DNA of 63,067 bases, taken from positions 1-63,067 of the forward strand of contig WSYB01000044.1 of the NCBI GenBank assembly GCA_009773645.1. The letters are read 5' to 3'. The notes under the pieces were generated by a model. The model saw only the letters and a list, made by a program, of their open reading frames with translations. It did no database searches and was not told the origin of the DNA. Shown piece after piece: positions 7,089-30,768 of this stretch (positions are counted from its first letter, which is position 1; the number at the start of each line of letters is the position of its first letter). A program made the position numbers and the translations under genes. This stretch comes from Geobacteraceae bacterium (GTDB lineage Bacteria; Desulfobacterota; Desulfuromonadia; Geobacterales; Geobacteraceae).

Positions 7089-7163
7089 GGGCATGCTCCT
7101 TTTTGATTATCCGCCGCTTCCCGGATAGAGCCATAATCCTAAATTCAGCAGTTTCAAATGTAA

Positions 7164-8207: not shown

Positions 8208-8256
8208 TCATTTGTTCCTCATTGCTGCTTATACCAACTTTGCCACTTTCAGCTTC

Positions 8257-8335
8257 CCCCTCCCCAGCCCTCCCCCGCCGGGGGAGGGGACGACTGCTCC
8301 TCCACCCAGCGGGGGGAGGTTGGGAGGGGGGAAAA
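8257..8335. repeat. GGGGGAGGG hairpin repeat between cheA and cheB
   Basis: The stretch contains CCCTCCCCCGCCGGGGGAGGG, a near-perfect stem, followed by a second imperfect copy (CACCCAGCGGGGGGAGGTTGG). Similar sequences lie at 27837 and 39766. Inside an operon it could stall or end transcription and so set the cheA to cheB ratio. That role is inferred. Confidence 0.6.
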
Positions 8336-8342
8336 GTTTTTC

Positions 8343-10613
8343 CTATATCAGCCGCCGGATAACTTCCAGCAGGTTGCTCTGATCGAAGCTGCTCTTCACG
8401 ATATAGGCATTTGCTCCCGCCTCGATGCCGCGCTCCCGGTCCTCGCGGGAATCGAGGGAGGTGACCAGCACCACCGGCAGGTCGGCAATCTCCCGGGACT
8501 TGCGGATTCTGGCGGTCAGATCGAAACCGTTCATCCGCGGCATATCCACGTCCGACACCACAAGGTCTATCTGTTCCGTCCTGAGCTGCGTCAGTGCGTC
8601 GATCCCATCTACAGCCGTACTGGTCCGGTAGCCGGCCGTCTCCAGGATATTTTTCAGGAGCGTCCTGGCAGTAATGGAATCTTCGGCGATCAGCACCGAT
8701 TTGCGCGGCACTTCCTCCCTTTCCGCCCGTGACAAGGCGACGGCCGGTATGGCGGCCCCCTTCGCCGCGGATTTCACCAGGTCGCCGGGATGGAGTATCG
8801 TCGCCACCTTGCCGGTTCCGAGCACCGTTGCGCCGGCGATGTTGCGAACCCGCGGCAACTGCGGGCCGAGACTTTTCACCAGGACTTCCTGTTCGCCGAG
8901 GATGCCGTCCACGCCGAAGGCGATCCGGCTCGACCCGCTGCCGATCAAGAAGAGCTGAATCAAGCCGTCGTCATCGCGGTCCCCTTCCTTCCGGGGAATT
9001 TGCAGGAGATCGGCAAGCCGGACAAAGGAAAGGGCAACGCCGTCCAATTCGACGGTTTCCCTGTTCTCTGCGGTCTTCAGCGACTCTTTGCCGATTCTTG
9101 CAACCCTTTCCACGCCGGCGGAAGGAACGATGAAAGTCTGCTCTCCCACACTGACCAGCACACCCCGGTAGGTTGAGAGGGTCAGGGGTAGAACCATTCT
9201 GAACGTTGTCCCGCGCAAAGGCTCGCTTATCACCGTAACGGTCCCGCCGAGCTTCTCCACCTTCTCCCGGACGATGGCAAGGCCGAGCCCCCTTCCCGAG
9301 AGGTCGGTGATTATGGGGCTGGTGGATACACCTGATTTGAAAATGAGCTCCAGAGATTCCTCATTCCCCATCCGGCTTGCCTCATCCCGCGTAATGACTC
9401 CCTGCTGCACGGCAACGTCCGCCAGCATGGCGGTATCCATCCCTGCCCCGTCGTCAGCGACGACCATCTCGATCCGGCTGGTGCCGATGAGCGAAACCGC
9501 TACGGTAATTCGCCCGCACGCCGGTTTGCTCCGGCGCTTGCGCTCCTCGGGCTTTTCAATGCCGTGGTCGATGCAGTTGCGCACCAGATGAATAAGTGGG
9601 TCTTTCATCTCTTCCAGGACCCGTTTGTCGATTTCAACGGTTTCTCCCGTGACCGCCAGCTCCGCTTCCTTGCCGCGGTCCCGCCCGAGGTCCCGGACCA
9701 TCTTCGGCAGGACCTCCAGAATGGTCGAGCAGGGGAGCATCAGCACCTCCTTCAGGTCGCCGAGGAGAGCGTCCACCATGCCGTCGAGGAGATGCCGGTC
9801 GTTGGCCGCAGCTTTTGCAAGATTGTGCACCCTGTTTTCCAGGGACTTGACGGCTGCGTGGTTCCAGTCGAAAAATGCCAGGAGTTTCCCCAACTGGCCG
9901 GCATCCGAGTCCGTCACGAGCCGGCCTGCCGGCGATTGCTGCACCTTGCGCAGCCTGCGTACCGCCGGCCGGACCTTTTTCCACTCCTTTTCCCACGAGG
10001 CAAGGGCGGCGCTTATCTCATCAAGTTCTGCGGCGCGCTGCCGGGCGGAGATTTTTGCGGTGAGCATTTCCTCCGCCTGGTGGAGGAGAGAGTCGAGTTT
10101 CCCGGCGGAAATCCTGACTGTGCCGGCCACGGCGGGTTTCTCGGGGTGAGGGCCGTCCCGGTATTCCGGCTGCGGAGGCGCCGGTGGGGGAGCAGGTGGA
10201 GATGGAGCACCTTTCACCCCCTTCTCCAGGCTGAGGATGAGTTCCCTGACCCCGGATTTTTCCGCGGTAGCGTCGTCGGCCCCGGAAGAGTAAAGGTGGG
10301 TCTCGATCGTGTCGGTTGTCCGGTGGAGCAGATCGAACAAGGCCGGGGAAGGGACGATTTCCTGGCGTTTACATTGGGCGAAGACGCTTTCCAGGGCATG
10401 GCTGAGGGACTCGATCCCGGCCATGCTGACGGCGCGGGCCGCCCCTTTCATGCTGTGCGCCTCGCGGAAGACGGCTTCGAGGATCTCCTGTCGTTTCTCG
10501 TGCTCCGTGGCCTTTTCCAGTGCGATCAGGCCTGAGGAAAGGGCGGCGAGGCGCTCTTTCGTCTCGACCTTGAACGTCGCCAGGAGCCTTTTCTGAAAAT
10601 CGTCGTCCATCAT
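8343..10613 (-). CDS. cheA: CheA-type chemosensory kinase with C-terminal receiver (WspE-like)
   Basis: The 756 residues hold an N-terminal Hpt domain (phospho-His in EAHSMKGAAR near residue 50), a Pro-rich linker, a dimerisation segment, a CheA-type ATPase (N box HLVRNCIDHGIE, GRGLGLAIVREKVE), a CheW-like regulatory domain, and a C-terminal REC domain (Asp in VVSDVDMPRMNG). CheA phosphorylates response regulators under control of receptor arrays. The attached receiver is the WspE/FrzE arrangement and may act as a phosphate sink or a second output. Two adjacent ATGs begin the Hpt domain (MMDDDFQKRL) behind GAGAG; an upstream in-frame start would add 12 residues read from the neighbouring repeat and was rejected. 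Confidence 0.93.
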   Translation of the reverse strand: MMDDDFQKRLLATFKVETKERLAALSSGLIALEKATEHEKRQEILEAVFREAHSMKGAARAVSMAGIESLSHALESVFAQCKRQEIVPSPALFDLLHRTTDTIETHLYSSGADDATAEKSGVRELILSLEKGVKGAPSPPAPPPAPPQPEYRDGPHPEKPAVAGTVRISAGKLDSLLHQAEEMLTAKISARQRAAELDEISAALASWEKEWKKVRPAVRRLRKVQQSPAGRLVTDSDAGQLGKLLAFFDWNHAAVKSLENRVHNLAKAAANDRHLLDGMVDALLGDLKEVLMLPCSTILEVLPKMVRDLGRDRGKEAELAVTGETVEIDKRVLEEMKDPLIHLVRNCIDHGIEKPEERKRRSKPACGRITVAVSLIGTSRIEMVVADDGAGMDTAMLADVAVQQGVITRDEASRMGNEESLELIFKSGVSTSPIITDLSGRGLGLAIVREKVEKLGGTVTVISEPLRGTTFRMVLPLTLSTYRGVLVSVGEQTFIVPSAGVERVARIGKESLKTAENRETVELDGVALSFVRLADLLQIPRKEGDRDDDGLIQLFLIGSGSSRIAFGVDGILGEQEVLVKSLGPQLPRVRNIAGATVLGTGKVATILHPGDLVKSAAKGAAIPAVALSRAEREEVPRKSVLIAEDSITARTLLKNILETAGYRTSTAVDGIDALTQLRTEQIDLVVSDVDMPRMNGFDLTARIRKSREIADLPVVLVTSLDSREDRERGIEAGANAYIVKSSFDQSNLLEVIRRLI

Positions 10614-10622
10614 GGTTCTCTC

Positions 10623-10678
10623 GTAGGGGCAAACCTTGTGTTTGCCCAAAATTGGGCGATCACAAGGATCGCCCCTAC
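10623..10678. repeat. 56-bp GTAGGGGC...GCCCCTAC palindromic repeat
   Basis: The sequence reads GTAGGGGCAAACCTTGTG and, after a short spacer, CACAAGGATCGCCCCTAC. It fills the gap between the MCP and cheA genes almost exactly. It folds into one long interrupted hairpin. Only one copy was seen in this window. Confidence 0.7.
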
Positions 10679-10680
10679 CT

Positions 10681-12300
10681 CTAAACCCTATACTGTTCCA
10701 CCAGCCGCTTCAGCTTCTGCCCGAGCTCGTGCAGGTTCTGCGCCGACTGTTCGGCCTGCTGCGTGCTGGTGACGCTCAGGGTGCTCGCATCTTTGATGTT
10801 TTCCATGGCCAGGGCTACCTGGTCCATTCCCACCATCTGCTGCTGGCTCGACGCCGCTATCTGGGTCGAGGCGTTGGCCGATTCGGAGATGCTCTCCGCC
10901 AGGGTCCGAATCGACTCTCCCGCCTCGGCGGACTGTTTCTCTCCGGCTTCAACCGCCTTGCTGCCCTGCTCTGCTGCCATCACCGCGGAGTTGGTCGCCT
11001 TCTGGATATCGTTCAGGATCGTCCGCACCTGGGCGGTTGCCTGCTTCGACTGTTCGGCGAGGCTCCTGACCTCCTGGGCCACCACGGCAAAGCCTTTGCC
11101 GTGCTCCCCCGCCTTGGCCGCCTCGATGGCTGCGTTGACGGCGAGGAGGTTCGACTGCTCGGCCAGGTCGTTGACAGTCGCGATGATCTCACCGATGGCC
11201 TGGCTCTGTTCGCTGAGGCTCACGATGCTTTCGGCGACGGTTTCCATCTGTTCCCGGATCCGGTTCATTCCCTGGACCGCGTCTTCCACCGATTTTTTCC
11301 CATGGTGGGAGACCTGGAGCGACTTCTGCGCGCTGTCGGCCACATGCCGGGCCTTCTGCGCGGAGAGCTGGGTGGTCTGTTTCACCTCCTCGACGGTGAC
11401 GGTCGTCTCGTTGACCGCCGTGGCGGTTTCCGCCGCGCTGGAAGCGACCTGGGTCGTCGAGGAGAGGATCTCACCGGCGGAGGCGGCGAGGACGTTCACC
11501 CCTTCCTGGATTGCCATGGTCTGGTTGCGGAGGTTCTCCACCATCCGGCGAAACGTCTCCAGGAGGGCACCCAACTCGTCCCGGCTGTCGGGCACGGGGA
11601 CCGCTACGGTCAGATCGCCGTCGGCCACCCGCTCCGCCACCCTCACGGCCTGGGAGAGGGGGCGGGTGATGCTGCGGGTAAGGAGAATGGCGATGATGAC
11701 GGCAAAGATGACCGCCGCCGTCTTCATTGCCAGGATGAGGATGTAAGATTGCCGGGCCGCTTCCTGCGACTCTTTGAAGAACGAGGCCGCCTTGTTGTCG
11801 GCGAAGGTGAACACGTCGGCCATTTCCTTTTCCATGACGGTGTACTGGTCGGTCTCCATACCGGCCATCAATTGCGCAGCCGTATCATGCCTGTTCGCCT
11901 TCACCGCGGCAATGACCTGGTCGCGGAGCCGTTTCCACTCCTCGTATTCCTTGAGAACATCGTCAATATCGCTCTTCTTGCCGAGAAAGCGCTCTTTGAC
12001 CACCTCCATATTAGCGGTGAACTCTTTGTCAAAGCCGTATATCTCCTTCAGATAGGTGTTCACGGCGCCGCTCTCCTTGGCAGCTACGGCATCTTTCAGC
12101 TTGTAGTGCATCTTTGTAAAGAAGAGGTTCGCATCGCGCACACTCTTCCTGACGGTAAAGGGGTGCTCGTACAGTTGGGTGGTGCGGCTCGCCACATAAC
12201 TCAGCCTGTTCAATGCATATACCCCGGTGATAATCATAAGCGCGACGATTATTGCGTAGCTGGCCCACAACCTTGTCCTGATCTGGAGTTTACCGAACAT
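10681..12300 (-). CDS. Methyl-accepting chemotaxis protein (WspA-like receptor)
   Basis: A 539-residue inner-membrane receptor: transmembrane helix near 10-32, a helical periplasmic domain of four-helix-bundle type to about 190, a second helix ([20 protein letters not shown]), HAMP, and a long MCP signalling coiled coil. The conserved hairpin tip that binds CheA and CheW is present ([20 protein letters not shown]). There is no C-terminal CheR/CheB docking pentapeptide; the protein ends LVEQYRV. The start has an AAGGGAG site. It sits inside the chemosensory operon, after the second CheW, so it is the dedicated receptor. The stimulus is not evident. Confidence 0.94.
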
Positions 12301-12367
12301 TACCGTTCTCCCTTTCTATCTCATTTTGCTTGCATCAACCTGGATTCGGCAATTGCCGGATTCGGGA

Positions 12368-13000
12368 TCAATCTTCCATCTCTTCATGAACGATGATTTT
12401 TCTGTCGCTGAGGAGCTTCCTCCCGTCCAGGACCACCGTCCGCTCCCGTGTCACACCTTTCAGGTACTCCTCCCGGACCCCGGTCAGGGTGGGTAGGGAC
12501 GGCTGCAGCTCCGCCAGCGGAATCGACCGGACACCGCAGACGGCATCCGCCAGAATGCCGAACGCCATCCCCCCGTCATGCACGATGATTATCTTGTTCA
12601 GGTCCGTCAACCCCTTTTCCGGCAGGTCGAAGAACTTCTTGATGTCGATGACCGAAACGATCTGGCCGCGTACGTTGATCAGGCCGAGGACGAACGGCGG
12701 CGTGCAGGGAACCGGGGTAAGGTCCTTCAGGGGGAGGGTCTCGCTGACCCAGGACATCTCGATGCCGTACGTTTCATACGCCAGGAGAAATTCAAGGACT
12801 TCAAGGTATCCTCCCGCCGTTTCTTCCGCGTGGGGTTCCCGGGCAAGCGCCAGCGCCCTGGCCTTAAGGATACTCTTTTGTCCTTCGGGCGATACCCCGC
12901 GGTCGAGGAGGCCGGCGGCTGCATCAAGACGTTGCCGGACCCCTTGCCAGTCGATGTCCTGTCTCTGTTTCCGTCCGTTTTTTCCCCGTTTCCGTTCCAT
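12368..13000 (-). CDS. cheW: CheW-like coupling protein with N-terminal extension (WspD-like)
   Basis: A 210-residue protein with a basic N-terminal stretch, a helical extension (about 15-70) and a CheW domain from about 75 (FLLAYETYGIEMSWVSE, PFVLGLINVRGQIVSVIDI). CheW proteins link receptors to CheA. A second CheW with a long N-terminus in the same operon is a mark of Wsp systems (WspD). The ATG at 13000 has AGGGA seven bases upstream. An in-frame start at 13045 would add an Arg/Glu-rich segment encoded by a low-complexity GGAAAGGGA stretch that looks like intergenic repeat, so the shorter form is preferred but not certain. Confidence 0.88.
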   Translation of the reverse strand: MERKRGKNGRKQRQDIDWQGVRQRLDAAAGLLDRGVSPEGQKSILKARALALAREPHAEETAGGYLEVLEFLLAYETYGIEMSWVSETLPLKDLTPVPCTPPFVLGLINVRGQIVSVIDIKKFFDLPEKGLTDLNKIIIVHDGGMAFGILADAVCGVRSIPLAELQPSLPTLTGVREEYLKGVTRERTVVLDGRKLLSDRKIIVHEEMED

Positions 13001-13062
13001 GCCCCGTTCCCTTTCCACTCTATCCCTTTCCAACCCTTGAACCAAAACAGCATTTCAACCCA

Positions 13063-13224
13063 GAAAAAGCATTTTGAACACGGATCAAATCTGATTTATA
13101 CGGATTTTCACGGATTTAAACCATGGAGAGCATTAACCCAAAAGGTTGTGGCAGTAACCCGGTTTATCTCCTTGAATTATCAGTTTTAATCCGCTTTTTC
13201 CGTGTTAATCCGTGTCCAATTGCC
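13063..13224 (+). repeat. Dispersed 150-bp repeat, copy A (full length)
   Basis: This copy runs from GAACACGGATCAAATCTG to TTAATCCGTGTCCAATTGCC. The ends carry ACACGGAT and ATCCGTGT as terminal inverted repeats, and internal CACGGATT units repeat the motif. It shares almost its whole length with the copy at 50377 in reverse orientation, and parts with copies at 20388, 42592 and 52317. It has no coding capacity. It fills the gap between the cheR and cheW genes. Confidence 0.85.
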
Positions 13225-13240
13225 TTGTAGAATTTCAGCA

Positions 13241-14773
13241 TCACAGACTACCTGACGACGCTTCCCTGGTTGACGCGATGATCTCACCGAGCCGGCGCGC
13301 GCTCATCCCCTCCGACCCCGGCAGAATATCGTTGTCGCCGTATGCCGTCAGCAGTGACGCGGCGTTCTCCAGATGCCTGGCCGCCTCTTTCGTCCTTCCC
13401 CTGCGCCGGGTGAGATTGGCCAGCGCAAAGTGGGCCAGGACAAATCCATGATCGAGGTAGAGTGCCCTTTTAAGGGAAGCGATTGCCGCGTCGTCGTCCC
13501 CCTGTTCCTGGAAGATTATCGCTTGCAGATAGCGCACTTCCGGATCGAGCTTATTAACGGCTATGGCCTTTTCCGACCAATCCAGGGCCGCCGATAACTC
13601 CCCCTGATTGGCGAAGGCCCATGCCAGGAGAGCGGCGGCTTCCCCGTACCGGAGGGAAGCGGACCCTGACGGGGCGTTAGCCAGGAATCCAACGAGTTTT
13701 GCCGCCGCTTCGGCGTACTCACCCCGCCGGTAGAGCGCCAGAGCTTCTTCGTAGGGGGAAACCTGCCGTTCGGCGTGGTCCCGTTGCGCGGCCGCCGGTA
13801 AAGGCTCTGCCGATTGCGGCGGTGTGAAGCCCATAGTCCCGGTCTGATCAACAGCGGGAAGGGGCGGGGGAGGAGCCGTCATTGCGCCCGTTGCTTCGAG
13901 GGACGGCGCAACCGCCGTCTTCCCGTGACCGTCCTTCCGGTAGAAGACCGCGTTGTGGAAATGGACGGTTTCAAACCCGGCGAAAAGGGTGGGCGAGGTC
14001 TCGGTCGGGCTGACGATGAGCCAGCCGCCGGCCACCAGGGAGTGGCAAAACTTGTCGATGACCCTTTTCGCCTGTTCCGGCGAGAAGTACATCAGCACGT
14101 TGCGGCAGAAGATGACATCCATGGCGTTGGTATTGTTGAAAAGCGACGGATAGGTGTCTTCCGCCAGATTGAGCGGGGCGAAGGTCACCATTTTCCTGAC
14201 GGCGCCGGCTATCGCAAAGCGCCCCGTCCCGCCCGCGGTGAAATACCGCTCCTTTATTCCCCGGGGGACGCCGCGGAACGACCAGTCGCCGTACTCTCCC
14301 TGCACCCCTTTGCGGAGAGATGCGGGATTGACGTCGGTAGCCAGAATGGTCACGTTCCAGTGCGGAAGATCGGCGATCAGCCGCTGCAGCATGATGCCGA
14401 TGGAGTAAGGTTCTTCACCCGTCGAGCACCCCGCGCTCCAGATCCTCAGCCGTTGCTCCTTCCCCCGCCGGGAGCCGAGCAGCTCCGGGAGAATGTGGTT
14501 TTCGAGGGCCTCGAAACTCTTCTGCTCCCGGAAAAAGTAGGTTTCCCCGATCGTCAGGCAGCCTGCAAGGATGTTGATCTGCTCCTTGGTCAGCTCTGCC
14601 GTTAAGAGCCAGCGGACACATGCTGCGGGGTCGGCGAAGCCGAAATCACGGGCGGCGCAGATGATTCCCTGCTCAAGGTCGCGCCAGCGCTTTTTCGGAA
14701 AGTGGAGGCCGAACCGGGCGGTGATGAATTCACTGCTTTGGGCCAGGAGTTTGTCGGAAATCGTGTGGGTCAT
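13241..14773 (-). CDS. cheR: CheR-type methyltransferase with C-terminal TPR repeats (WspC-like)
   Basis: The 510 residues form a CheR methyltransferase (1-270) and a TPR region (about 345-480). SAM-binding sequences are visible: RIWSAGCSTGEEPYSIGI, LATDVNPASL and DVIFCRNVLMYF. CheR adds methyl groups to receptor glutamates with S-adenosylmethionine as donor. Fused TPR repeats are known for WspC and FrzF and are thought to govern receptor access. The start codon follows the stop of the upstream cheW directly (TAG-ATG), so translation is coupled. A Pro-rich linker separates the two domains. Confidence 0.94.
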   Translation of the reverse strand: MTHTISDKLLAQSSEFITARFGLHFPKKRWRDLEQGIICAARDFGFADPAACVRWLLTAELTKEQINILAGCLTIGETYFFREQKSFEALENHILPELLGSRRGKEQRLRIWSAGCSTGEEPYSIGIMLQRLIADLPHWNVTILATDVNPASLRKGVQGEYGDWSFRGVPRGIKERYFTAGGTGRFAIAGAVRKMVTFAPLNLAEDTYPSLFNNTNAMDVIFCRNVLMYFSPEQAKRVIDKFCHSLVAGGWLIVSPTETSPTLFAGFETVHFHNAVFYRKDGHGKTAVAPSLEATGAMTAPPPPLPAVDQTGTMGFTPPQSAEPLPAAAQRDHAERQVSPYEEALALYRRGEYAEAAAKLVGFLANAPSGSASLRYGEAAALLAWAFANQGELSAALDWSEKAIAVNKLDPEVRYLQAIIFQEQGDDDAAIASLKRALYLDHGFVLAHFALANLTRRRGRTKEAARHLENAASLLTAYGDNDILPGSEGMSARRLGEIIASTREASSGSL

Positions 14774-15253
14774 CTATTTCGGCACATCCACCTTATTCTC
14801 CCCCCCAAGCGCCATTTCCAGGGCGTCTTCCTCTTCGAGGGAGAGGAAGACGTCAAGGTCGTGGATGAAAACCATGCCGTCCGCGAGCTTTATCACCCCT
14901 GCCAGATACTCCAGGCCGGGAACGATCATCGGCGGAGCGGTCGTCTCCTGCGGTGAGTGATCAATAACGTCGCTGACCGCATCGACTACGAGCGCAACGG
15001 TGCGTTGCGCCGTCCGGGCAATGAGGAGCTGATCGCTCAGTCCCGGTTTCCGCTCGGGCAGGCGAAAACGTTTACGGATGTTCAAGATGGGGATAATTCG
15101 TCCCTGGAGGTTGATGATGCCGAGGACAATTTCCGGCGCTTGCGGCAGGGGGGTAATCTCAACCATCCGCACGGCTCTTTCCACGGCGGGAAGGGGCACG
15201 GCATAACGGCAATTTTCGAGGGTGAAGACGACTAGTTGATCGGGGTCAGTCAC
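14774..15253 (-). CDS. cheW: CheW-like coupling protein, first gene of the chemosensory operon (WspB-like)
   Basis: A 159-residue single CheW domain (VVFTLENCRYAVPLPAVERA, IVLGIINLQGRIIPILNI, and a C-terminal strand FIHDLDVFLSLEEE). It should join the MCP to the CheA hybrid. The start is GTG behind GAGGCGGG. It leads a minus-strand run of seven genes with small gaps, and a strong promoter lies about 40 bases upstream. The second CheW gene downstream is longer and diverged, as expected if each docks to a different partner. Confidence 0.92.
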   Translation of the reverse strand: MTDPDQLVVFTLENCRYAVPLPAVERAVRMVEITPLPQAPEIVLGIINLQGRIIPILNIRKRFRLPERKPGLSDQLLIARTAQRTVALVVDAVSDVIDHSPQETTAPPMIVPGLEYLAGVIKLADGMVFIHDLDVFLSLEEEDALEMALGGENKVDVPK

Positions 15254-18728: not shown

Positions 18729-18780
18729 AGCTATTTTTTCATCATGGAGATACGGAGAAAGTCGAAAACCTGAAACCATT

Positions 18781-18901
18781 TTCACGCAAAGACGCAAAGG
18801 CGCAAAGAAAATCGAAAACTTGAAAATCTTTTCAAGGTTGTAAAACAAGGGTTAGAGGTTTTGCTCTTGACTTTCTTGGCGTCTTTGCGACTTTGCGTGA
18901 G
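18781..18901. repeat. CACGCAAAG inverted repeat between prpC and prpD
   Basis: The left arm is TTCACGCAAAGACGCAAAGG and the right arm is CTTGGCGTCTTTGCGACTTTGCGTGA, around an AT-rich loop of about 60 bases. A second copy lies at 59764. The element occupies most of the gap between prpC and prpD and could attenuate prpD expression. Confidence 0.8.
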
Positions 18902-18934
18902 ACGGTTTTGATTTTGATTTTTCGAGGAGGAAGC

Positions 18935-20499: not shown

Positions 20500-23400
20500 T
20501 CAAGTCGAAAGTTCCCTACACCCTTCCTTCTTGATAATTTCCCCGATCACCTGGACGCATTTCCTGAAGTCGATCGGTTTCGCAATGAAGGCGTCCATGC
20601 CGGCGGCCAGACACTTCTCCTCGTCCTCTTTCAGGACGTGGGCCGTCATGGCGACGATGGGGGTATGTCCGCCCCGTACCCGCTCCTTCTCCCGGATGGC
20701 GCGGGTCGCCTCGAAGCCGTCCATACGCGGCATCTGTACGTCCATCAGCACGAGGTCGTACTCCCCCTTCTCCCACATCTCGACCGCCTTCCGGCCGTCC
20801 TCGGCGACGTCGAGTTCGTAGTTCGACCTCTGGAGCATTACCATGATGACATTCCTGGTGATCTGGTCGTCTTCCGCAAGGAGGAGGCGCGGACTTATCC
20901 CCTCGTCGACGCGGGAGGCCGCGCCCTCTGCCGGCACAGGTGTCCCGGCCGTGAGACCTGCCTTGCGTTCCGCTGCGGCCACCCCAAGGGGAACGGTGAC
21001 GGAGAAGCTGCTTCCCACCCCCTCTTCGCTTTGGAAGGTTATCGTGCCTTCCATCCGTTCCATGATCTCCCTGCTGATGGCAAGACCGACGCCGGTGCCG
21101 CCGTATTTGCGGGTGTCGGAATTGTCTACCTGACTGAAGGAGTTGAAGAGAAGGTTTTTCTTGTCGCCGGCGATGCCGATGCCGGTGTCGTTGATGGTGA
21201 TGGTGAACTTCCGCTTGCCGCCGGCTGCGATGCTCCCGGCCTCAACCCGCACCTCTACCTTTCCCCGTTCGGTGAACTTGACGGCATTGCCGACGAGATT
21301 CGTGAGAACCTGCCGCAGCCGTACCTGGTCTCCGATCACGGTTTCCGGCAGATCGTCCGCCGCCGAGAGGAGGAGGTCGATCTCCTTGCGCCGCGCCTCG
21401 GGGATGAGGATATCGATTGTGCCGCCCACGCACTCACGGAGGGAGAACGGTTTCTCCTCGATGAAGAGTTTTCCCGCCTCGATCTTCGTCAGGTCGAGGA
21501 TGTCGTTCAAGATCCGCATCAGCGAGCGCCCCGACTTGTGGGCTATATCGATGTATTCCCGCTGCTGCGGATCGAGAGTGCCGCCGAGGGCGATCTCGAG
21601 CATGCCGAGAATGCCGGTCATCGGAGTGCGCAGCTCGTGGCTCATGTTGGCGAGGAACTGGCTCTTGGCCCTGGTGGCCGCTTCGGCTGCTGCCTTTGCC
21701 TGCCGCAATTCCTCCTGTGCCTTGACCAGATGGTCTATGTTCGACGCCGTGCCGAACCAGCGGACGATCTCTCCTGCTTCGTTGCGAATCGGACGGCCGT
21801 GCACCTTGAACCATTCGAATACGCCGTCGTGCCGCCGGACCCGGTATTCAAGATCGTAAGGCGCGCGCTCCTCCACTGCCGCGCGCCAGGCGGCATAGGC
21901 ACGCGGCCGGTCATCGGGATGCAGCAGCTTGTTCCACCCGTCGCCCAAGTGCTCGATCATCGGCACGCCGGTGAAATCGACCCACTGCTGGCTCTGGTAA
22001 TCGCAGTAGCCGTCCGGCCTCGTCGTAAATACCATACCCGGGATCGATTCAAGAGTTTGGCGGTAGAACAGTTCGCTCTCTTGCAGCGACTCCATCAAGG
22101 TATTCCGTTCAGCCAGCGACCGGGCCAGCTTGAGATTGCTGTAGCCGAGCTTGCAAAGGATGTCGGCCAGCTCCATGAAGAAAGCCATGCTGGTGTCCAG
22201 AGTCTCCCGGCTCAACCGTGGAGCGGCTTCGAGTGCGGCGATGTACCCATTTACATCGAAGCCGTACTGTCTGGCCTGGGACCGGAAGAACTCGTAATCC
22301 AGCGCCTCGTCCTCGAAGAAGAATTGCCCAATGAAGAGATTGCCGAAGTGCCTGTCGCCAATGGTGATCGGTGTCGCCACATCCCACATGTTGTTCTTGC
22401 ACTTGTAAATCTTGTACTCGCCGTGGAGAACGCCAGCCGAGAGCTGCACGTCGCTTTCGACACAGTTAGCGCAGGTCTCGGGATTGACGCGGTGGAATCG
22501 CGTGCAGACATCCTGCCACCCCACGCCGACCAATACCTTGCCATTGAGATCTATCAAGCCCATCGGCATGCGGGTAAGCTCATAAAAATCGTCCACCAGC
22601 GACTGGAGCGCCGGGGCATCGATGATGTCGGCAAGATCCAGATTTTCGATGTCTCCTTCCGGCGAGATGATGCTGTCCAGTTTACGCCTGACGCGCTCCT
22701 CGCTCTCGGCCAGCGCCTCCTGCGCCCGCTTGCGTTCGGTGATGTCGTAGGCGTATATACGCGCAACCTCGAATTGGGAGGTTAGGAATATCGTCTCGCC
22801 GAAGACCCTCTCTTCCAGCTCGATCTCACGTTGGAGTGTGGCATCTTCTTTCCTGTTCCAGTTCCCCAAGATGTCGTCCAGGTCTGAGGGGATGAAAACA
22901 TCGACATCCGCCTCGGCAAATCCTAGCTTTTCCAGAACCTTTTCCGTGGCCGGATTGGAGAAGATGATATTGCCGGATAAGTCCACCTCCAGGACCGGAT
23001 TCGGGTTCAATTGCGGAAAGGAGGCGAGATGTATGGTCCGCTCCTCCATCCGCTTGTGTTCGGTGATGTCGACGAAGGTGACGACGATGCCGTCTATTAC
23101 ACCGTTCGTGCTCCGGTAGGGGAGGACCCGCATGATATAGCACCGGCCGCTCTCCACGGCCGTAACCTCCCGCTCGATGGGGAGAAGCTTTCCCAGCACC
23201 TCTTCCGCGTCTCGCGGGAGCCCCGTCCAGTCGATGGTGCCGGCCAGATGGCGGAAGGGGCGGCCGATGTCGGCCTGGATCAGGTTGAAGATGGCGGCCA
23301 TGGCCGGGGTGAAGCCCTTGATGTTGAGCCGCCGGTCGAGGAAGAGGGTGGCGATCCCGGAGCTGGTGAGGAGGTTCTCCATGTCGCTCGTGGCCTGGTT

Positions 23401-25662
23401 TAGCTCTTCCACTTTTCCCTGCAGCTCGGCGTTGACCGTGACCAGCTCCTCGTTCAGGGCCTGCAGCTCCTCCTTGGAGGTCTCCAGCTCCTCGTTGGTG
23501 GACTGCAGCTCTTCGTTGGCGGACTGGAACTCTTCATTCATGGAGATGAGCTCTTCGTTGGCCGACAGGAATCCCGCGTTCGAGGTTTCGAGCTGCTCGG
23601 TGGTGGCCTGAAGCTGCTCGTGGGTGATGTGGAGCTGTTCCTCCAGCTGGCGGATCAGCGTCTCCCTGGAGGTTTCGTCCCCGGCGGGCGCCTCCTCGCT
23701 GCCTCCCGGCGCGGGAAACGGCGCGGGGGGCAGGGCCGGCTCGAAGACGACCATCGCCAGCTTCTCGGCCGGCGGAGGAGCGCTGGCCGGCTCGACCAGG
23801 ACATTGACCGCCATCTCCTCTCCGTCGATGGCGACCTTCACTCCCCGGAAAACTACCTCCTTCTGTTCGGCGAAGGCCTTGTAGATCGCCGCCCGCAGGG
23901 GGGGGCGCAGCTCAGACCTGGCCATCCGCAGGATGTCGCGGGTAGGTTCCCCGACCGGCACTTCGAGGAAGCGGTTCGTCCTGGTGGAGACGTGGACCAC
24001 CTCGTATTTCTCGTTGACGACCACGCAGGGGGGGGAGTAGCGCTCCATGAGGAGCCTTTCCGCGACCGCGCCGGGGGAGGGCTCAATTGTGCCGTCCTGC
24101 CGCGGGAAGCGCGCCGTCACGGGGAAGTTGCGGACCGGGGCGGCAAAGGGAAAGAGCGTCTCGGCGCGGCGCCCGCTCTCCAGGCGCTGGAAGATTTTCC
24201 ACTTCTTGTCGACGGGGGTGAAGAGGTCGGAGTGGCGACCCACCGTTTCCGCGGAGCCTAAGAAGAGAAAGCCCCCCGGCTTCACCACCTGGTGGAACAG
24301 GGAGATGAGCCGTTTCTGCATGTCGGGGTTGAGATAGATGAGGAAGTTGCGGCAGACGAGGAGGTCGAGCCGGGAGAAGGGAGGGTTCTTGAGCAGGCTG
24401 TGATGGGCGAAGACGATCATCTCCCGAAGACTCTTCACCACCTGCCAGCGGCCGTCGGTCCTGGTGAAGAAGGCCCGCAGCCGTTCCTCCCCCACGTCCG
24501 CCCCGATGTCGTCGGGATAGAGACCGGCCCGGGCCTCGGCGATCGCCGTTTCGTCGATATCGGTGGCGAAGAGCTGGACCTTGGCATCGAGCCGCTGCTC
24601 GTTCAGGTATTCCCTGATCAGGAAGGCCATCGAATAGACTTCCTCGCCGGTGGCGCAGCAGGCGTGCCAGATGCGCACCGGGTCGTCGGGGTCGCGCTCC
24701 GCGAAAAGGCGCGGGATGACCACCTGCCGGATGGTCGCGAACGCCTCGGGGTCGCGGAAGAAGCTCGTCACGCCGATCAGGATGTCCTGGGCGAGGGCCT
24801 GCGCCTCCTGAGCGTTCTCCTGCAGAAGGGCGATGTACTTCCCGATCCCCCCCACATCGTTCACCGCCAGACGGCGCTCGATGCGGCGCAGGACGGTGTT
24901 CGCCTTGTAGGAGCTGAAATCGTGGCCGGTCTTCCCTTTCACGATGCTGAAAATGGCGTGCAGCTCCTCATCGAGGGTGGTCGCCCGGCATGCCCGTGGC
25001 GTGAGGGTGCAGGTCCCGCGGGCGATCTCGGCGATCTTCACCGGTATATCTTCCGCCGGCAGGATGAAATCCGCCGCCCCGGTGGCGATGGCCCTCCGGG
25101 GCATGGCGGGATTGGTGGCCGAACCCGGTTCCTGGACGATGACGATCCCTCCGGCTTCCCTGACAGCTTTTACCCCCCCGGCGCCGTCCATGCCGAAGCC
25201 GGAGAGTACCACCGCGACGGCGCGCTCCGCCACCTCCAAGGCCAATGAACGGAACAGGCGGTCGATGGGGTGGGGCGCTCCATGCCCCGGCTCTTCGAGG
25301 TGGAGCCGGCCGCCGCTCACGACGAGCCCCCTGCCGGCGGGGATCACCTGGACAGTGTCCGGCTTGAGCGCCATACCTTCTTCGGCCGTCACCACCGCCA
25401 TGGTGGTGTAACGGGCGAGCATCTCGGCTAGAAACGATGGCCCGTCGGGGGGGAGGTGCATGATCACCACGAAGGAGAGGCCGCAGTCGGTTGGCATGGC
25501 GGTGAATATCTGTTCCAGGGCTCCCTGACCGCCGGCGGAAGCGCCGATGGCGACGACGAAGCAGGGTTTCTCCGTGGCGGACTCCTCACTCCGCGCCGGG
25601 GGGGTGCCGGAGTTGGCCGTCGTGCCGCTCTTCTTCTGGGTTGGGTCCGTTTTTCCGGGCAT
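20500..25662 (-). CDS. CheB-CheR-PAS-PocR-PAS-histidine kinase-REC fusion
   Basis: This 1720-residue protein joins a CheB methylesterase domain without receiver (1-215; Ser in GASAGGQG, His in VIMHLPPDG, Asp in GFGMDGAGG), a CheR methyltransferase (225-490; IWHACCATGEEVYSMAF), a coiled coil of NEELQSTNEELETS type (about 655-745), a PAS10-like domain, a PAS domain, a PocR sensory domain (about 1000-1180, with CTRFHRVNPETCANC), another PAS, a HisKA domain (MSHELRTPMTGILGM), an HATPase and a C-terminal REC (LVLMDVQMPRMDG). CheB-CheR-PAS proteins are known; the PocR and full hybrid kinase extend it. It has no membrane segment. It is the last gene of the minus-strand sensory operon, 28 bases after the GGDEF-EAL gene, with GAGGAAAAG before its ATG. 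Confidence 0.93.
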   Translation of the reverse strand: MPGKTDPTQKKSGTTANSGTPPARSEESATEKPCFVVAIGASAGGQGALEQIFTAMPTDCGLSFVVIMHLPPDGPSFLAEMLARYTTMAVVTAEEGMALKPDTVQVIPAGRGLVVSGGRLHLEEPGHGAPHPIDRLFRSLALEVAERAVAVVLSGFGMDGAGGVKAVREAGGIVIVQEPGSATNPAMPRRAIATGAADFILPAEDIPVKIAEIARGTCTLTPRACRATTLDEELHAIFSIVKGKTGHDFSSYKANTVLRRIERRLAVNDVGGIGKYIALLQENAQEAQALAQDILIGVTSFFRDPEAFATIRQVVIPRLFAERDPDDPVRIWHACCATGEEVYSMAFLIREYLNEQRLDAKVQLFATDIDETAIAEARAGLYPDDIGADVGEERLRAFFTRTDGRWQVVKSLREMIVFAHHSLLKNPPFSRLDLLVCRNFLIYLNPDMQKRLISLFHQVVKPGGFLFLGSAETVGRHSDLFTPVDKKWKIFQRLESGRRAETLFPFAAPVRNFPVTARFPRQDGTIEPSPGAVAERLLMERYSPPCVVVNEKYEVVHVSTRTNRFLEVPVGEPTRDILRMARSELRPPLRAAIYKAFAEQKEVVFRGVKVAIDGEEMAVNVLVEPASAPPPAEKLAMVVFEPALPPAPFPAPGGSEEAPAGDETSRETLIRQLEEQLHITHEQLQATTEQLETSNAGFLSANEELISMNEEFQSANEELQSTNEELETSKEELQALNEELVTVNAELQGKVEELNQATSDMENLLTSSGIATLFLDRRLNIKGFTPAMAAIFNLIQADIGRPFRHLAGTIDWTGLPRDAEEVLGKLLPIEREVTAVESGRCYIMRVLPYRSTNGVIDGIVVTFVDITEHKRMEERTIHLASFPQLNPNPVLEVDLSGNIIFSNPATEKVLEKLGFAEADVDVFIPSDLDDILGNWNRKEDATLQREIELEERVFGETIFLTSQFEVARIYAYDITERKRAQEALAESEERVRRKLDSIISPEGDIENLDLADIIDAPALQSLVDDFYELTRMPMGLIDLNGKVLVGVGWQDVCTRFHRVNPETCANCVESDVQLSAGVLHGEYKIYKCKNNMWDVATPITIGDRHFGNLFIGQFFFEDEALDYEFFRSQARQYGFDVNGYIAALEAAPRLSRETLDTSMAFFMELADILCKLGYSNLKLARSLAERNTLMESLQESELFYRQTLESIPGMVFTTRPDGYCDYQSQQWVDFTGVPMIEHLGDGWNKLLHPDDRPRAYAAWRAAVEERAPYDLEYRVRRHDGVFEWFKVHGRPIRNEAGEIVRWFGTASNIDHLVKAQEELRQAKAAAEAATRAKSQFLANMSHELRTPMTGILGMLEIALGGTLDPQQREYIDIAHKSGRSLMRILNDILDLTKIEAGKLFIEEKPFSLRECVGGTIDILIPEARRKEIDLLLSAADDLPETVIGDQVRLRQVLTNLVGNAVKFTERGKVEVRVEAGSIAAGGKRKFTITINDTGIGIAGDKKNLLFNSFSQVDNSDTRKYGGTGVGLAISREIMERMEGTITFQSEEGVGSSFSVTVPLGVAAAERKAGLTAGTPVPAEGAASRVDEGISPRLLLAEDDQITRNVIMVMLQRSNYELDVAEDGRKAVEMWEKGEYDLVLMDVQMPRMDGFEATRAIREKERVRGGHTPIVAMTAHVLKEDEEKCLAAGMDAFIAKPIDFRKCVQVIGEIIKKEGCRELST

Positions 25663-25690: not shown

Positions 25691-27799
25691 TCAGGCCTGA
25701 TCCTGCCGTTTCACAGTATCGAAGAGCCTGGTGATGTCTTCTGCGGAGAGGGGCTTGCTGAATAAAAATCCCTGCATTTCGGCACAGTTGAGAGAGGCGA
25801 GTAACTGCAACTGTGCTTCCGTCTCCACCCCCTCCGCGATAACGTTGAGCTTCAGGCTTTTGGCCAGGGTGATTACCGCTGTGGCGATCGCTTCATCGTC
25901 CTGGTTGGAGTTTATGTCACTGATAAAGGAACGGTCGATCTTGAGTGTATGAATGGGAAGCCTTTTTATATGGGCGAGCGATGAGTAGCCGGTGCCGAAG
26001 TCGTCGATGGAGACATGAATCCCCAGATCACTCAACCTGCGGAGCGTAAAAATGGTGTTTTCCTCGTTAAGCAGCATGATGTTCTCGGTTACCTCAAGCT
26101 CAAGCCAGCGGGGTTCGAGATGCGTTTCATGCAAAACCTTTTCCACCATGTCCGCCAGGTTGAGCTGCTGGAACTGCCGGGGAGAGAAGTTGACGGCAAC
26201 GCGCATGGGGGGATACCCCGCTTCCTGCCAGGCCTTGTTCCGGGCGCATGCCGTACGGAGCACCCATTCACCGAGCGGCACAATCAAACCCGTTTCTTCC
26301 GCAATGGGGATGAACTGCGTCGGGGGAACCAGTCCGAACTCCGGGTGACACCAGCGCACCAGCGCTTCGTTGGCGACGATCAGACCGGTTTTTATGTTGA
26401 CCTTTGGCTGGTAGTAGAGGAGGAACTCATCCTGCTGCAGCGCCTTGCGCAGACTGTTTTCCAACGCCAACCGCTCGAAGGCCTGGGCATCCATGGAAGG
26501 AGCGTAGAGATGGTATCTGTTTCGCCCATGCTCTTTGGCGCGGTACATGGCCATGTCGGCATGCTTTATCAGGGTTTCGGAGATGATGCCGTCATGGGGA
26601 AAGATGCTGATTCCGATGCAGGTGCTGATGAACACCTCATGATCGGGAAGAACGAAGAGCTGGCTGAAGGCGTCGATGATCTTCTGGGCAACCCTGACCG
26701 CATCCTGGACATCTTCGAGCTCTGGAAGAAGGATGATGAATTCATCCCCCCCGCGCCGGGCAACGGTATCCCGCTCTCGCCGGCAGCATTGTTTGAGCCG
26801 CTGTGCCGCCGCCTGGAGGAGCTGGTCGCCGACGGGATGCCCGAGGGTATCGTTAATGACCTTGAAACGGTCGAGGTCGAGAAAGAGCACGGCCAGAAGC
26901 CGGTTATGACGGTGGGCCTGTGCCATTGCATGATGCAGAAGTTCATTGAACAGTTGCCGGTTGGGAAGACCTGTCAGGGAATCATAATAGGCCATCTGTT
27001 TGATGGTCTCTTCCGTCTGTTTTTTGCCGGTGATATCCTCCTGAAACGCGATGAAATGGGTTATCTTCCCTTCCTCGTCGGTGATGGGGAAGACGGACGC
27101 AGAGGCCCAGTACAGCTCACCGTTCTTTGTTCTGTTACGGAATTCACCGCGCCATGCCCCTCCTGAGTTAATGGTTTCCCATAACGTGTTGTACTCCTCG
27201 GGTGGAATTTCTTCCGATTTCAGGATGCCCGGTTTTTCCCCGACCGCTTCGGCCGGGGTGTAGCCGGTCAACCGGGTAAACCCGGGATTCACATATTCGA
27301 TCTTCCCCGAGGTGTCGGTAATGATGATGGAGACCGGGCTTTGTTCAACCGCGTGGGACAGCTTGCGAATAAAATCGCCCTGCTTCCGGAGCTGTTTTTC
27401 CAGGTGGATGCTGTTGATGCACAGTTCAATTACCGAAAAGAGTTTGGCCTGGTTGATCGGTTTCAACACATAATGATCGATGCCGATATCGATTGTTTCC
27501 AGTATGCGGTTCGTGTCCGTGTCTGCCGTGGCTACGATGATCCTGGTGTCCTTGTTTAATTTCTTGATTTCCTTTGCCATCCGGATGCCGTCCATAATCG
27601 GCATCCGCATATCGGTCAATACTATATCCGGTCCATGCGTTTTAAAGAGTTCAAGCCCTTGTTGGCCATTTTCCGCCTGGTATACGGTCACGTCAGGAAA
27701 TTTATTGTGTAACAGCAACGTCACGACATCTCTGGTAACCCTGTCATCTTCAGCGTATAAAATTGCCGGTACGAATGTTCCGCTATCCGGGATATCCAT
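25691..27799 (-). CDS. REC-PAS-GGDEF-EAL cyclic-di-GMP protein
   Basis: The 702 residues comprise a receiver (D63 in VLTDMRMPIMDG, lysine in VLKPINQ), a PAS domain (about 150-265), a GGDEF domain with intact RRGGDEF, and an EAL domain with intact NEALVRW, DDFGTGYSS and EGVET motifs. Both synthesis and breakdown of cyclic-di-GMP are therefore possible, switched by phosphorylation. The RxxD inhibitory site upstream of GGDEF was not clear. Its REC-PAS half is very like that of the kinase encoded next upstream, so the two may share an input or form mixed dimers. It lies in the five-gene sensory operon. Confidence 0.94.
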   Translation of the reverse strand: MDIPDSGTFVPAILYAEDDRVTRDVVTLLLHNKFPDVTVYQAENGQQGLELFKTHGPDIVLTDMRMPIMDGIRMAKEIKKLNKDTRIIVATADTDTNRILETIDIGIDHYVLKPINQAKLFSVIELCINSIHLEKQLRKQGDFIRKLSHAVEQSPVSIIITDTSGKIEYVNPGFTRLTGYTPAEAVGEKPGILKSEEIPPEEYNTLWETINSGGAWRGEFRNRTKNGELYWASASVFPITDEEGKITHFIAFQEDITGKKQTEETIKQMAYYDSLTGLPNRQLFNELLHHAMAQAHRHNRLLAVLFLDLDRFKVINDTLGHPVGDQLLQAAAQRLKQCCRRERDTVARRGGDEFIILLPELEDVQDAVRVAQKIIDAFSQLFVLPDHEVFISTCIGISIFPHDGIISETLIKHADMAMYRAKEHGRNRYHLYAPSMDAQAFERLALENSLRKALQQDEFLLYYQPKVNIKTGLIVANEALVRWCHPEFGLVPPTQFIPIAEETGLIVPLGEWVLRTACARNKAWQEAGYPPMRVAVNFSPRQFQQLNLADMVEKVLHETHLEPRWLELEVTENIMLLNEENTIFTLRRLSDLGIHVSIDDFGTGYSSLAHIKRLPIHTLKIDRSFISDINSNQDDEAIATAVITLAKSLKLNVIAEGVETEAQLQLLASLNCAEMQGFLFSKPLSAEDITRLFDTVKRQDQA

Positions 27800-27872: not shown

Positions 27873-29402
27873 TCAAGATTGTAAAGGGAGGGTAAAATAG
27901 AATGTCGCCCCTTTCCCAGCTTCTCCTTCGGCCCAGACCCGCCCGCCGTGGCGCTGGATGACCCGCTGCACCGTGGCGAGGCCGATACCGTGCCCTTCAA
28001 ATTCCTCTGCACTGTGCAGACGCTGGAAGGCGCCGAACAGTTTGTCGGCCTGGCTCATGTCAAAACCGGCGCCGTTGTCGCGGACGAAATAGGCCGGGTT
28101 TCCTTCCGATTCCGCCACGCCGAATTCGATGACGGCGGCTTCCTTTTTCCCGGTATACTTCCAGGCGTTGCCGAGGAGGTTTTCCATGACCACCCGCAAT
28201 AACTGCTTGTCCCCATATCCCTTCACCCCTTCTGCAATGGTGAATGTCACCCGGCGTTCCGGCTTCTTCAGCCGGAGATCCAGGCCTATCTCTTGTGCCA
28301 TCTCGCTGAGATCGACCTTTTCCCTGGACATCTCGCTCCGAGTCGTACGCGAAAAATTCAGGATGGTGTCGATCAGTTGATTCATGAGCCGGGTTCCCTC
28401 GTATATTTTCCGAAGGTAGCTTCTGCTTTCCTCATCGAGCCTGTCGGCGCATAATTCCAGCAGTATCTGACTGAAGCCGCTGACCTTCGTCAAAGGGGAG
28501 CGGAGATCATGGGAAACCGTGTGACTGAACGCCTCCAGTTCCCTGTTGGCTGCTTCCAGCTCGGCGGCGCGCGCTGCGAGGTTTGTGTTCAATATTTCAA
28601 TTTCCTCTTCGGCCCGTTTGCGCGCGGTGATGTCTTCTTTGACCGCCACAAAGTGGATGATGATCCCGTTGTCATCGGGTATGGGGGAAATGGATGCGGA
28701 CTCCCAGTAAAGTTCCCCTCCTTTTTTGCGGTTCAGAAATTCGCCGCGCCATTCACGCCCGGCGGTCACGGTCTCCCAGAGATTTTTGTATGTATCCGGT
28801 GGTGTTACGCCGGATTTAAAAATCCGCGGGTTCCGCCCGAGCACTTCCTCGGAGGCATAGCCCGTTATCTCGGTGAACTTGGGGTTGACGTATTCTATGG
28901 CGCCTCCCGCATCGGTGATGATGATGCTGGCGGGGCTCTGTTCAACGGCACGGGACAGCTTGCGGATATGATCATGCTGTCGTCTGACCTGCCGTTCCAG
29001 TCTGATTCCGGCGGTGCATTTTTCAATTATCGCAAAGAGCTTTTTGTGGTCGACCGGTTTCAGCACGTAGTGATTGATGCCGCATTCAATGGCGTTCAGC
29101 AGGTAGTGCGTATCGCTGTAAGCCGTTATGGCGATGATTATGGCATCGGGGTCCAGGGACTTGATCTCGTCGGCCATCCGGAGGCCGTCCATGCCCGGCA
29201 TGTTTATGTCGGTTATAACGATCTCCGGCCGATGCCCTTTGAACAACTCCAGGCCGGTCATGCCGTCCTTTGCCGCATATATCTTCATGCCGGGGAATTT
29301 TCTGGGAATCATGATGGAGAGAATCTCCCTGGCTACCGGGTCGTCTTCAACCAGCAGGATCGAAATTTCGGACTCGTTGATTTCGGACGCAAAGTCTCTC
29401 AT
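27873..29402 (-). CDS. REC-PAS-histidine kinase
   Basis: The 509-residue soluble protein has a receiver (D65 in VITDINMPGMDG, lysine in VLKPVDH), a PAS domain (about 155-270, GYASEEVLGRNP, ending ITARKRAEEE), the linker ILNTNLAARAAELEAANREL, H-box VSHDLRSPLTKVSGF and an HATPase domain. The front half matches the REC-PAS of the GGDEF-EAL protein next door. The back half matches the kinases at 5832 and 15384. It therefore looks like a product of module exchange. It starts one base after the stop of the upstream kinase gene, so the two are translationally linked. A likely role is an intermediate in a phosphorelay. Confidence 0.92.
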   Translation of the reverse strand: MRDFASEINESEISILLVEDDPVAREILSIMIPRKFPGMKIYAAKDGMTGLELFKGHRPEIVITDINMPGMDGLRMADEIKSLDPDAIIIAITAYSDTHYLLNAIECGINHYVLKPVDHKKLFAIIEKCTAGIRLERQVRRQHDHIRKLSRAVEQSPASIIITDAGGAIEYVNPKFTEITGYASEEVLGRNPRIFKSGVTPPDTYKNLWETVTAGREWRGEFLNRKKGGELYWESASISPIPDDNGIIIHFVAVKEDITARKRAEEEIEILNTNLAARAAELEAANRELEAFSHTVSHDLRSPLTKVSGFSQILLELCADRLDEESRSYLRKIYEGTRLMNQLIDTILNFSRTTRSEMSREKVDLSEMAQEIGLDLRLKKPERRVTFTIAEGVKGYGDKQLLRVVMENLLGNAWKYTGKKEAAVIEFGVAESEGNPAYFVRDNGAGFDMSQADKLFGAFQRLHSAEEFEGHGIGLATVQRVIQRHGGRVWAEGEAGKGATFYFTLPLQS

Positions 29403-29403
29403 G

Positions 29404-30768
29404 TCAGACCTCTATCCTGAATTCCGCGCCATTTCCGGTGTTTCGCGCGGTAAGCCTGCCGTTCATGTTCTTCTCGATGATGGTTTTCGACATGTACAGG
29501 CCGACTCCCGTTCCCTTGTCCGGCCCCTTGGTGGTGAAGTACGGGTCGAAGATCCGGTCCAAGATGCCTGCCGGAATGCCGCCGGCATTGTCGGTAATGG
29601 TCACCACGGCTTTGCCCTTTTCGGTGAAAACCCGTAATTCGACCCGCGCATCGGCGATCTTCTTCTCCAGGAACGCGTCCCTGGCGTTGATCAGGATATT
29701 GAGGAGCACCTGGGAGTATTCGTTGGGATAGCCGTTGATGAGCGGCTCCCCCTTTGTCTTGACTTCGACCTTGATCTGCTGGCACCTGTAGCTCCCCTCG
29801 ACGAGGGAGACTGTCTTGGCGACCACCTCGTCCACCCTGAACAGGGTCATTTCCTTGTCGGGGCGGAAGAAGTTCCGGAAGTCGTCGATGGTCTGTGACA
29901 TGTGGAAGATGACCTGCATGGCTTTATTAACACCGGCTTCAAGATGCTCCTTGCTGAACTCCCCGCATTCGCCGGGTACGAGCAACCCCTGGATATAGAG
30001 TCCGATGGTGTTGAGAGGCTGTCGCCACTGGTGGGCGATGTTGCCGATCATTTCACCCATGGCTGCCTGGCGGCTCTGCTGCATCAGCATCTGGTCCTTC
30101 CGGCGCAGTTCTTCCATCGTCCGCATGCGCTCCCGCATTTCTGCCTGCAAAGCCTGTTCCGCCGTAATCCGGTCTGCGACTTCCTCCTGCAAGGCGGTTA
30201 TCGTTTTGACCAGCTCCGCCGTCCGTTCCGCGACCCGTTTATCCAGCTCGTTATAGGCATCCCGCAGCGCTTCCTCTGTCCGCTTGCGTTCGGTGATGTC
30301 TTCTATGACGGCAATCAGATACTTATGATTGCCGGAACTCTCGCTTACCAGAGATACCGTCAGATTTATCCAGACTGTGGAACCATTCTTATGAATGTAG
30401 CGTTTCTCGATGGAATAGTTGCGGATTTCACCTGCCAGCACCCGGTGGAACCACTCCAGGCTGACTTTCAGGTCGTCGGGGTGGGTGATGTCCTGAAAAG
30501 TCAGATTCTTCAATTCTTCTTCCGTGTACCCGACAGTATCGCACAACTTTCGGTTTATTTGCAGCCAGCGGCCGTCCAGACCCGCAAGCGCTATGCCGAC
30601 CGCAGCCTGATTGAATGTGGCGCGGAACCGCTCTTCGCTTTGCTGCAGATCGTCGAGCTTTTGCTGGAGCTCGGGATAATAGGTCTTCCGCAGAGAATGG
30701 TCGCCGAGGCCGATGATTTTCTCACGCAAAGAGTCCCAATTGTTTTGGGAATCAGAGGGCGTTTTCAT
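29404..30768 (-). CDS. PAS-domain histidine kinase
   Basis: A 454-residue soluble kinase: coiled N-terminus, a PAS domain (about 45-165, [20 protein letters not shown], ending [10 protein letters not shown]), a long coiled coil (about 170-245), and a kinase core with H-box [20 protein letters not shown] box [12 protein letters not shown] and G boxes DNAGGIPA and [10 protein letters not shown]. The HQWRQPLN type of H-box differs from the other kinases in the window. It should phosphorylate the receiver of the next gene, with which it is tightly coupled. A small upstream ORF overlaps its start. Confidence 0.92.

Follow-up and report, generated by a model that had tools for sequence, protein, structure and literature searches.

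Do the methylation enzymes in a large signalling protein of a Geobacteraceae bacterium act on the protein itself or on a receptor outside of it? This question is raised by a gene at 20500..25662 (minus strand) of the window, the whole stretch of 63,067 nucleotides analyzed here, which encodes a CheB methylesterase and a CheR methyltransferase in one chain with sensory domains and a kinase. A sequence-only reading of this DNA had rightly posed it, and the evidence leans towards the protein itself, owing to receptor-like motifs in a coil of the same chain and to relatives in genomes without detectable chemoreceptors (MCPs), which keep both the catalytic residues and the motifs.

Domain architecture and genomic surroundings

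The open reading frame starts with ATG and encodes a real and complete protein of 1720 amino acids, in which CheB, CheR, a PAS-like region, a long coil, PAS_10, another PAS-like segment, PocR, PAS, HisKA, HATPase and REC follow each other on the minus strand; the Pfam domains were called above the curated cut-offs. The CheB domain (PF01339; residues 37–210, 25033..25554) carries the Ser-His-Asp triad (S42, H69, D159) and aligns with solved enzymes. The N-terminal regulatory REC domain of classical CheB is absent, the sole REC stretch of the protein being located at residues 1594–1705, and control of this CheB must therefore differ from that of classical CheB. The methyltransferase (PF01739/PF03705; CheR_N 232–283 and CheR 298–489; 24196..24969) matches its profiles and, aligned to solved CheR structures, exhibits intact SAM-site motifs (ATGEE, ATDID, CRN). 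It is followed by a region (residues ~528–650, 23713..24081) which no Pfam model matched, but whose predicted order of helices and strands would fit a PAS domain, by the coil (~668–760, 23383..23661), which lies within a predicted single helix (665–768), by PAS_10 (Pfam; 761–867, 23062..23382), and by a segment (868–1005, 22648..23061) without a Pfam match that looks by eye like a degenerate PAS domain. A predicted model of the part from the first PAS-like region to PAS_10 (mean pLDDT 77.7, pTM 0.35) gave PAS matches for 255–379 and was hardly a test of the first PAS-like region. The PocR domain (1012–1174, 22141..22629; Pfam E 2e-50) and a PAS_3/PAS_4 domain (Pfam; 1199–1307, 21742..22068) precede a kinase core of HisKA (1332–1397, with the H-box residue His1342) and HATPase_c (1444–1559; together 20986..21669) and the C-terminal receiver (1594–1705, Asp1641; 20548..20883), which makes the protein a hybrid histidine kinase. 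The MCP signalling domain PF00015 did not match anywhere in the 1720 residues (E up to 0.01).

The CheB-CheR-PAS-PocR-PAS-kinase-REC chain of 1720 residues described by the sequence-only reading is thus borne out by the open reading frame, Pfam, the catalytic residues and recurring relatives, although the reading had overlooked both PAS-like regions and the coil. Relatives in other genomes contain the same PAS-coil-PAS_10 core with 65–70% identity, and such recurrence of similar architectures argues against an assembly chimera. CheB-CheR-PAS proteins are known, as had been stated (the coil is matched in 62 of 297 genomes of the window's phylum and in 63 of 299 further genomes), and the accessible part of one article counts a "cheBR fusion" in Geobacter (PMC8396549). 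The present protein extends these fusions by PocR and a hybrid kinase.

PocR (PF10114) is matched over the full length of its profile and contains four cysteines (1053, 1064, 1067 and 1088). The cluster that had been pointed out earlier is therefore real, with 1053, 1067 and 1088 invariant in 52 aligned PocR domains, and its residues suggest a metal or redox site. Its structure model (pLDDT 93.7) was closest to GAF domains in Foldseek (best E 5.6e-3), and IclR, PobR and DhaR effector domains were among the top rows in VIA-align (best Z 8.9); a search against PDB sequences gave no match at E ≤ 1. The fold is perhaps GAF-like, a label that stays tentative as VIA-align Z values of 7–8 are common without kinship.

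The continuation through PocR into a hybrid kinase had been regarded as the special feature of this fusion. The continuation holds, but PocR occurs in eight of 69 proteins on a tree (a set partly collected through PocR), and its presence requires at least six changes, five of them forced by well supported branches. With at least five changes PocR is a shuffled part. A search for the combined architecture had also been proposed: similar architectures do occur in other genomes, whereas none of 81 coil proteins from Pseudomonadota contained PocR within the stretches examined. Besides the window genome, CheB-CheR-PocR proteins are encoded at L040 (genome G042, same family) and at L084, L086, L087, L093 and L115, with PocR of L084 being cut by a contig end; L219 combines CheR, coil and PocR without a CheB match, and the Pfam check covered L040, L086, L093, L115 and L219. 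At L109 the PocR module belongs to another protein, encoded two genes further along. L093 (3677–11479), from a Nitrospirae MAG, contains two CheB-CheR-coil proteins close together, one with and one without PocR. L248 (4121–6262, plus strand) is a 713-residue frame with the second, weaker PocR match of its genome, and weak PocR matches in frames of roughly 700 residues recur across the family, in many of its genomes.

The large gene is likely the fourth of a four-gene signalling operon, as all four genes share one strand with gaps of 1, 73 and 28 bases: a PAS-HisKA-HATPase gene (29404..30768), a REC-PAS-HisKA-HATPase gene (27873..29402) and a REC-PAS-GGDEF-EAL gene (25691..27799; 28 bases from the large gene), all minus strand and assigned by Pfam. 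Farther upstream in the window, a 333-residue frame (31714–32715, minus strand) without a Pfam match at E ≤ 1e-5 adjoins a 2-thiouracil desulfurase-like gene (30988–31515). The earlier statement that no MCP is present in the operon is true of these four genes, but it missed a che cluster at 5832..15253 (minus strand; CheW, CheR-TPR, CheW, MCP, CheA-REC, CheB, REC-HK), whose MCP (10681–12300) is encoded 8.2 kb from the large gene, on the same strand and behind prpBCD on the other strand. This cluster, whose response regulator is a REC-kinase and not a GGDEF protein, resembles Wsp. According to the accessible text of PMC3447774, such a make-up with CheR-TPR is linked with alternative cellular functions (ACF), and with its CheR-TPR gene and multidomain response regulator the cluster falls into the ACF type as defined there. 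At this distance action on outside receptors is possible for the protein, and the MCP of the cluster is a possible substrate in trans. The window genome is moreover rich in MCPs (40 match rows) and thus not itself an MCP-less case.

PocR sensor kinases are known from PDU loci and a 1,3-propanediol operon (PMC4207490) and from dichloromethane loci (PMC9768040), both as given in the accessible parts of these articles. By analogy, a small carbon compound would be a fair guess for the ligand. The neighbouring prpB, prpC and prpD (16699–20380, plus strand; NCBIfam cut-offs exceeded), which encode methylisocitrate lyase, 2-methylcitrate synthase and 2-methylcitrate dehydratase of the 2-methylcitrate cycle, are convergent with the large gene and end 119 bases away from it. 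A C3 ligand would suit this neighbourhood, but a prp gene was the best match for none of the open reading frames of 18 relative loci (E ≤ 1e-15, limited flanks), and prpBCD is therefore not counted as ligand evidence.

A receptor-type motif array in the coil between CheR and PAS_10

In MCPs, CheR and CheB act on tandem heptads (positions a–g) of the type [AST]xx[EQ][EQ]xx[AST], with a site spacing of 7 in E. coli; the strict receptor consensus requires two small residues on each side, and receptors use Gln as well as Glu at their methylation sites. In the coil of the window protein six consecutive in-register heptads, of the type S-x-N-E-E-L-x, match the relaxed consensus [ASTG]xx[EQ][EQ]xx[ASTG]. 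The [AST]xxEExx[AST] heptads are centred on E703/704, 710/711, 717/718, 724/725, 731/732 and 738/739, with E689/Q690 located upstream. The strict consensus had no match in either the large protein or the window's own MCP, and the latter met the relaxed one only twice, so that the consensus is a weak predictor of methylation sites.

Conservation is a further property of the array. Among 143 CheR-bearing coils, b and c of five heptads are Glu in 97–100% and the flanking f is small (Ala, Ser, Thr, Gly) in 94–100%, so that the sites are nearly always Glu and the outward-facing b and c are less variable than most core d positions. Where ungapped, five heptads also have invariant Glu pairs in 47 distinct CheR and PAS_10 containing proteins from many phyla. 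As the pairs at b and c would face outward, this conservation is not readily explained by packing alone. Asn is near-invariant at several a positions, which is a structural feature of the coil.

The enzymes beside these coils are preserved as well. Across 142 proteins, the CheR motif residues D, R and N and, within TGEE, the second E are unchanged in all 142 and the first E of TGEE in 137; the catalytic Ser and His of CheB are each kept in 135 of 137 scorable proteins and the Asp in 137 of 138. Proteins without CheB keep six (L198), three (L219) or two (L213) sites. The cases with a dead CheB, too few to trace coevolution with the coil, differ in their coils: L193 (Ser to Arg, His to Gln) retains seven sites and, like L262 (Asp to Glu), its Glu residues, while L217 (minus strand, 1274 amino acids; Ser to Gly, His to Gln) contains Gln at several b positions that are Glu in its relatives, resembling a coil locked in a methylated form.

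Linkage of the coil to CheR and its occurrence in genomes without detectable chemoreceptors

A profile of the coil was searched in the 297 genomes of the window's phylum, and loci from other searches were added. In this mixed set 66 of 69 distinct coils with at least 60 bits share their open reading frame with CheR, compared to only three of 34 weaker coils (25–60 bits). Of the three exceptions, L188 has CheR in an overlapping upstream frame and L216 is a 158-residue fragment, which leaves L200 as the true one. L200 (minus strand, 1405 amino acids; coil-PAS_10-PAS-GAF-HK-REC) keeps its coil sites without CheB or CheR in the frame or elsewhere in the 8.5 kb stretch that contains it; the same genome (G331) also encodes relatives with CheR. 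A second, independent set of 299 genomes, which we take to be Pseudomonadota, yielded 84 coil places, of which 81 were taken in (80 with at least 60 bits and one with 56) and three weak matches (42–48 bits) left out. CheR was present in 79 and CheB in 78 of the 80 strong coils; L303, the sole strong coil without CheR in its frame, has CheR in another frame of the same stretch. Parts are split over neighbouring frames in both L215 and L303.

A test for the pattern itself points in the same direction. At least three in-register sites were found in 49 of 58 frames with CheR, in one of 158 kinase frames (a truncated copy of the window protein) and in two of 1210 others (the window protein itself and L127), among loci gathered through their similarity to the large protein or via PocR and CheR, which are not a neutral sample. 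Glu pairs at b and c occur in many kinase coils, also in those lacking CheR, and the pairs alone are therefore no evidence of methylation. The flanks do differ: in 28 CheR-less kinase frames matching the coil profile (including L200) 67 of 143 Glu/Gln pairs are small-flanked versus 900 of 1128 in frames with CheR (p 2e-11 in a Mann-Whitney test of the fractions, without correction for relatedness). Similar small-flanked coils are nevertheless found in the CheR-less kinases L218, L220, L221 and L222 (from two genomes), whose coils contain tandem ATNEELDATVEELQ-like heptads with small-flanked pairs in a row, and in the CheR-less L127.

Whether the proteins need outside receptors was probed with PF00015 in 118 genomes whose coil match reaches 60 bits or more (batches of 76 and 42). 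The domain was matched at E ≤ 1e-3 in 68 and 35 of them (103 of 118) and at the curated cut-off in 66 and 35. Fifteen coil-bearing genomes (eight and seven) thus have no MCP at E ≤ 1e-3; G348 and G479, which exhibit only sub-cut-off matches, are outside these 15. CheW and CheR were searched in the ten first-batch genomes without an MCP above the curated cut-off. CheW was found in two of these, once as a fragment with a stop, and all 12 full-length CheR matches were located in frames with a coil match, next to five partial, weak ones. For the eight first-batch genomes of the 15 this means that full-length CheR domains occur only in coil proteins, and CheW was matched in none of seven of them; G381, with CheW and no MCP, may only be incomplete. 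One of the ten is Algoriphagus antarcticus (G346, reached via L100), in whose genome no MCP was found and which has two further coil proteins outside the compared set.

The compared coil proteins of the first batch keep the CheB triad, the CheR motifs and 4–7 sites, with Lys replacing one helix Arg in L100, and among eight proteins of the second batch only L195 deviates, having Gln for the first Glu of TGEE. After merging of near-identical rows (15 MCP-less rows from 16 loci, L275 being merged into L277; five rows unlabelled), coils from MCP-less genomes have 4–8 sites with a median of 7 (15 rows), versus a median of 7 in 125 rows with MCPs (p 0.23), and placing the MCP-less label on a FastTree tree takes 13 changes. 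Several Pseudomonadota cases with nearly the same coil may represent one lineage, and some of the 15 may have an MCP in a missing part of an incomplete genome. At least four MCP-less genomes consist of a single contig or nearly so (G207 and G328 as single contigs, G495 and G564 with contigs of 5.44 and 3.68 Mb, approximately the whole genome), and the seven of the second batch are 94–99% complete.

Proposed self-methylation, its alternatives and known systems

What is observed comprises the domains with their catalytic residues, a conserved motif array linked to CheR, and the retention of this array where no MCP was detectable in the genome. From these we consider it somewhat more likely than not that the window protein is a soluble hybrid histidine kinase which adapts by itself, its own CheB and CheR reversibly methylating its own coil. 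CheR would methylate and CheB demethylate the coil's Glu pairs within their own protein, either in cis or across a dimer, and methylation might change charge repulsion and thereby coil stability, as in receptors. The downstream PAS, PocR and PAS domains would sense cytoplasmic signals and the coil would transmit a conformational change, with its methylation state setting the gain or bias of signalling between the PAS-like region ahead of the coil and the sensors and kinase that follow it, in analogy to MCP methylation acting on CheA. Output would leave via His1342 and the receiver (Asp1641), probably towards the operon's REC-containing proteins, one of which is the c-di-GMP enzyme. Beyond the motif array we infer every step, namely coil methylation, the dimer, the effect on the kinase and the flow of phosphate. 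As relatives exist in organisms without the usual target being detected, and as the receptor-like row of motifs lies beside the enzymes, the family of CheB-CheR-coil proteins probably tunes its own sensitivity.

The strongest competitor, which appears unlikely though worth serious thought, is that the coil does no more than serve as a conserved helix for signalling or dimerization, with Glu pairs and small residues serving packing or CheR docking, and that the enzymes modify another protein or CheR acts as a SAM-binding input. Glu pairs at b and c in kinase coils without CheR, the small-flanked coils of L200, L218, L220, L221 and L222 and the Asn at a positions all fit this view. Plain packing should, however, not need near-invariant outward b and c or small f residues across distant phyla, CheR-less kinase coils have fewer small-flanked pairs, and both catalytic sites are kept.

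Less probable still, in our view, is that CheB and CheR act in trans on chemoreceptors, be it the MCP 8 kb away or others, and so link PocR/PAS input to chemotaxis adaptation. The che cluster next door, the many MCPs of the window genome and the MCP matches in most coil-bearing genomes fit this idea, yet the 15 genomes without a match are scattered over the tree, catalytic residues and sites are both preserved in the coil proteins examined from these genomes, and the neighbouring cluster has a CheR-TPR and a CheB of its own. A non-functional fusion, accidental or recently broken, which the widely varying architectures around the core and the split parts in L215 and L303 might recall, is very improbable given an intact frame, intact active sites, six receptor-type heptads and the same core in other genomes. 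Self-methylation of the coil therefore stays the preferred reading. There is about an even chance, we believe, that it describes a widespread bacterial and archaeal class with receptor-type adaptation inside one polypeptide, a methylation memory without chemoreceptor, CheA or CheW, here driving a PocR-sensing hybrid kinase.

Neither a stated substrate for CheB-CheR-PAS proteins nor a publication on methylation of such coils was found in the literature searched, which was mostly outside subscription journals. The 142 compared proteins with CheB, CheR and coil share the core CheB-CheR-PAS-like-coil-PAS_10; most lack PocR and many end after PAS_10, whereas the window protein continues into a hybrid kinase. 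The S-helix (PMC1592074) is likewise a helical linker between signalling domains; however, it comprises about 40 residues and the accessible text does not name CheR or CheB, while the coil described here has about 100 residues with receptor-type motifs. The PocR kinases of PMC4207490 similarly feed PocR into a histidine kinase, but their genes adjoin the pathway they presumably control, and CheB and CheR are not mentioned in the accessible part of that article. ACF clusters with CheR-TPR, as described in the accessible text of PMC3447774, are matched in type by the neighbouring che cluster, of which the large protein is no member. MCPs contain alike tandem heptads, whereas the window protein lacks PF00015 and unites the enzymes with their presumed substrate in one chain. 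The main gain for the whole class is this candidate substrate in the same chain, with concrete residues named. If the protein is its own substrate, methylation-based adaptation, known from chemoreceptors, would extend to ordinary sensor kinases, including those of organisms without chemotaxis.
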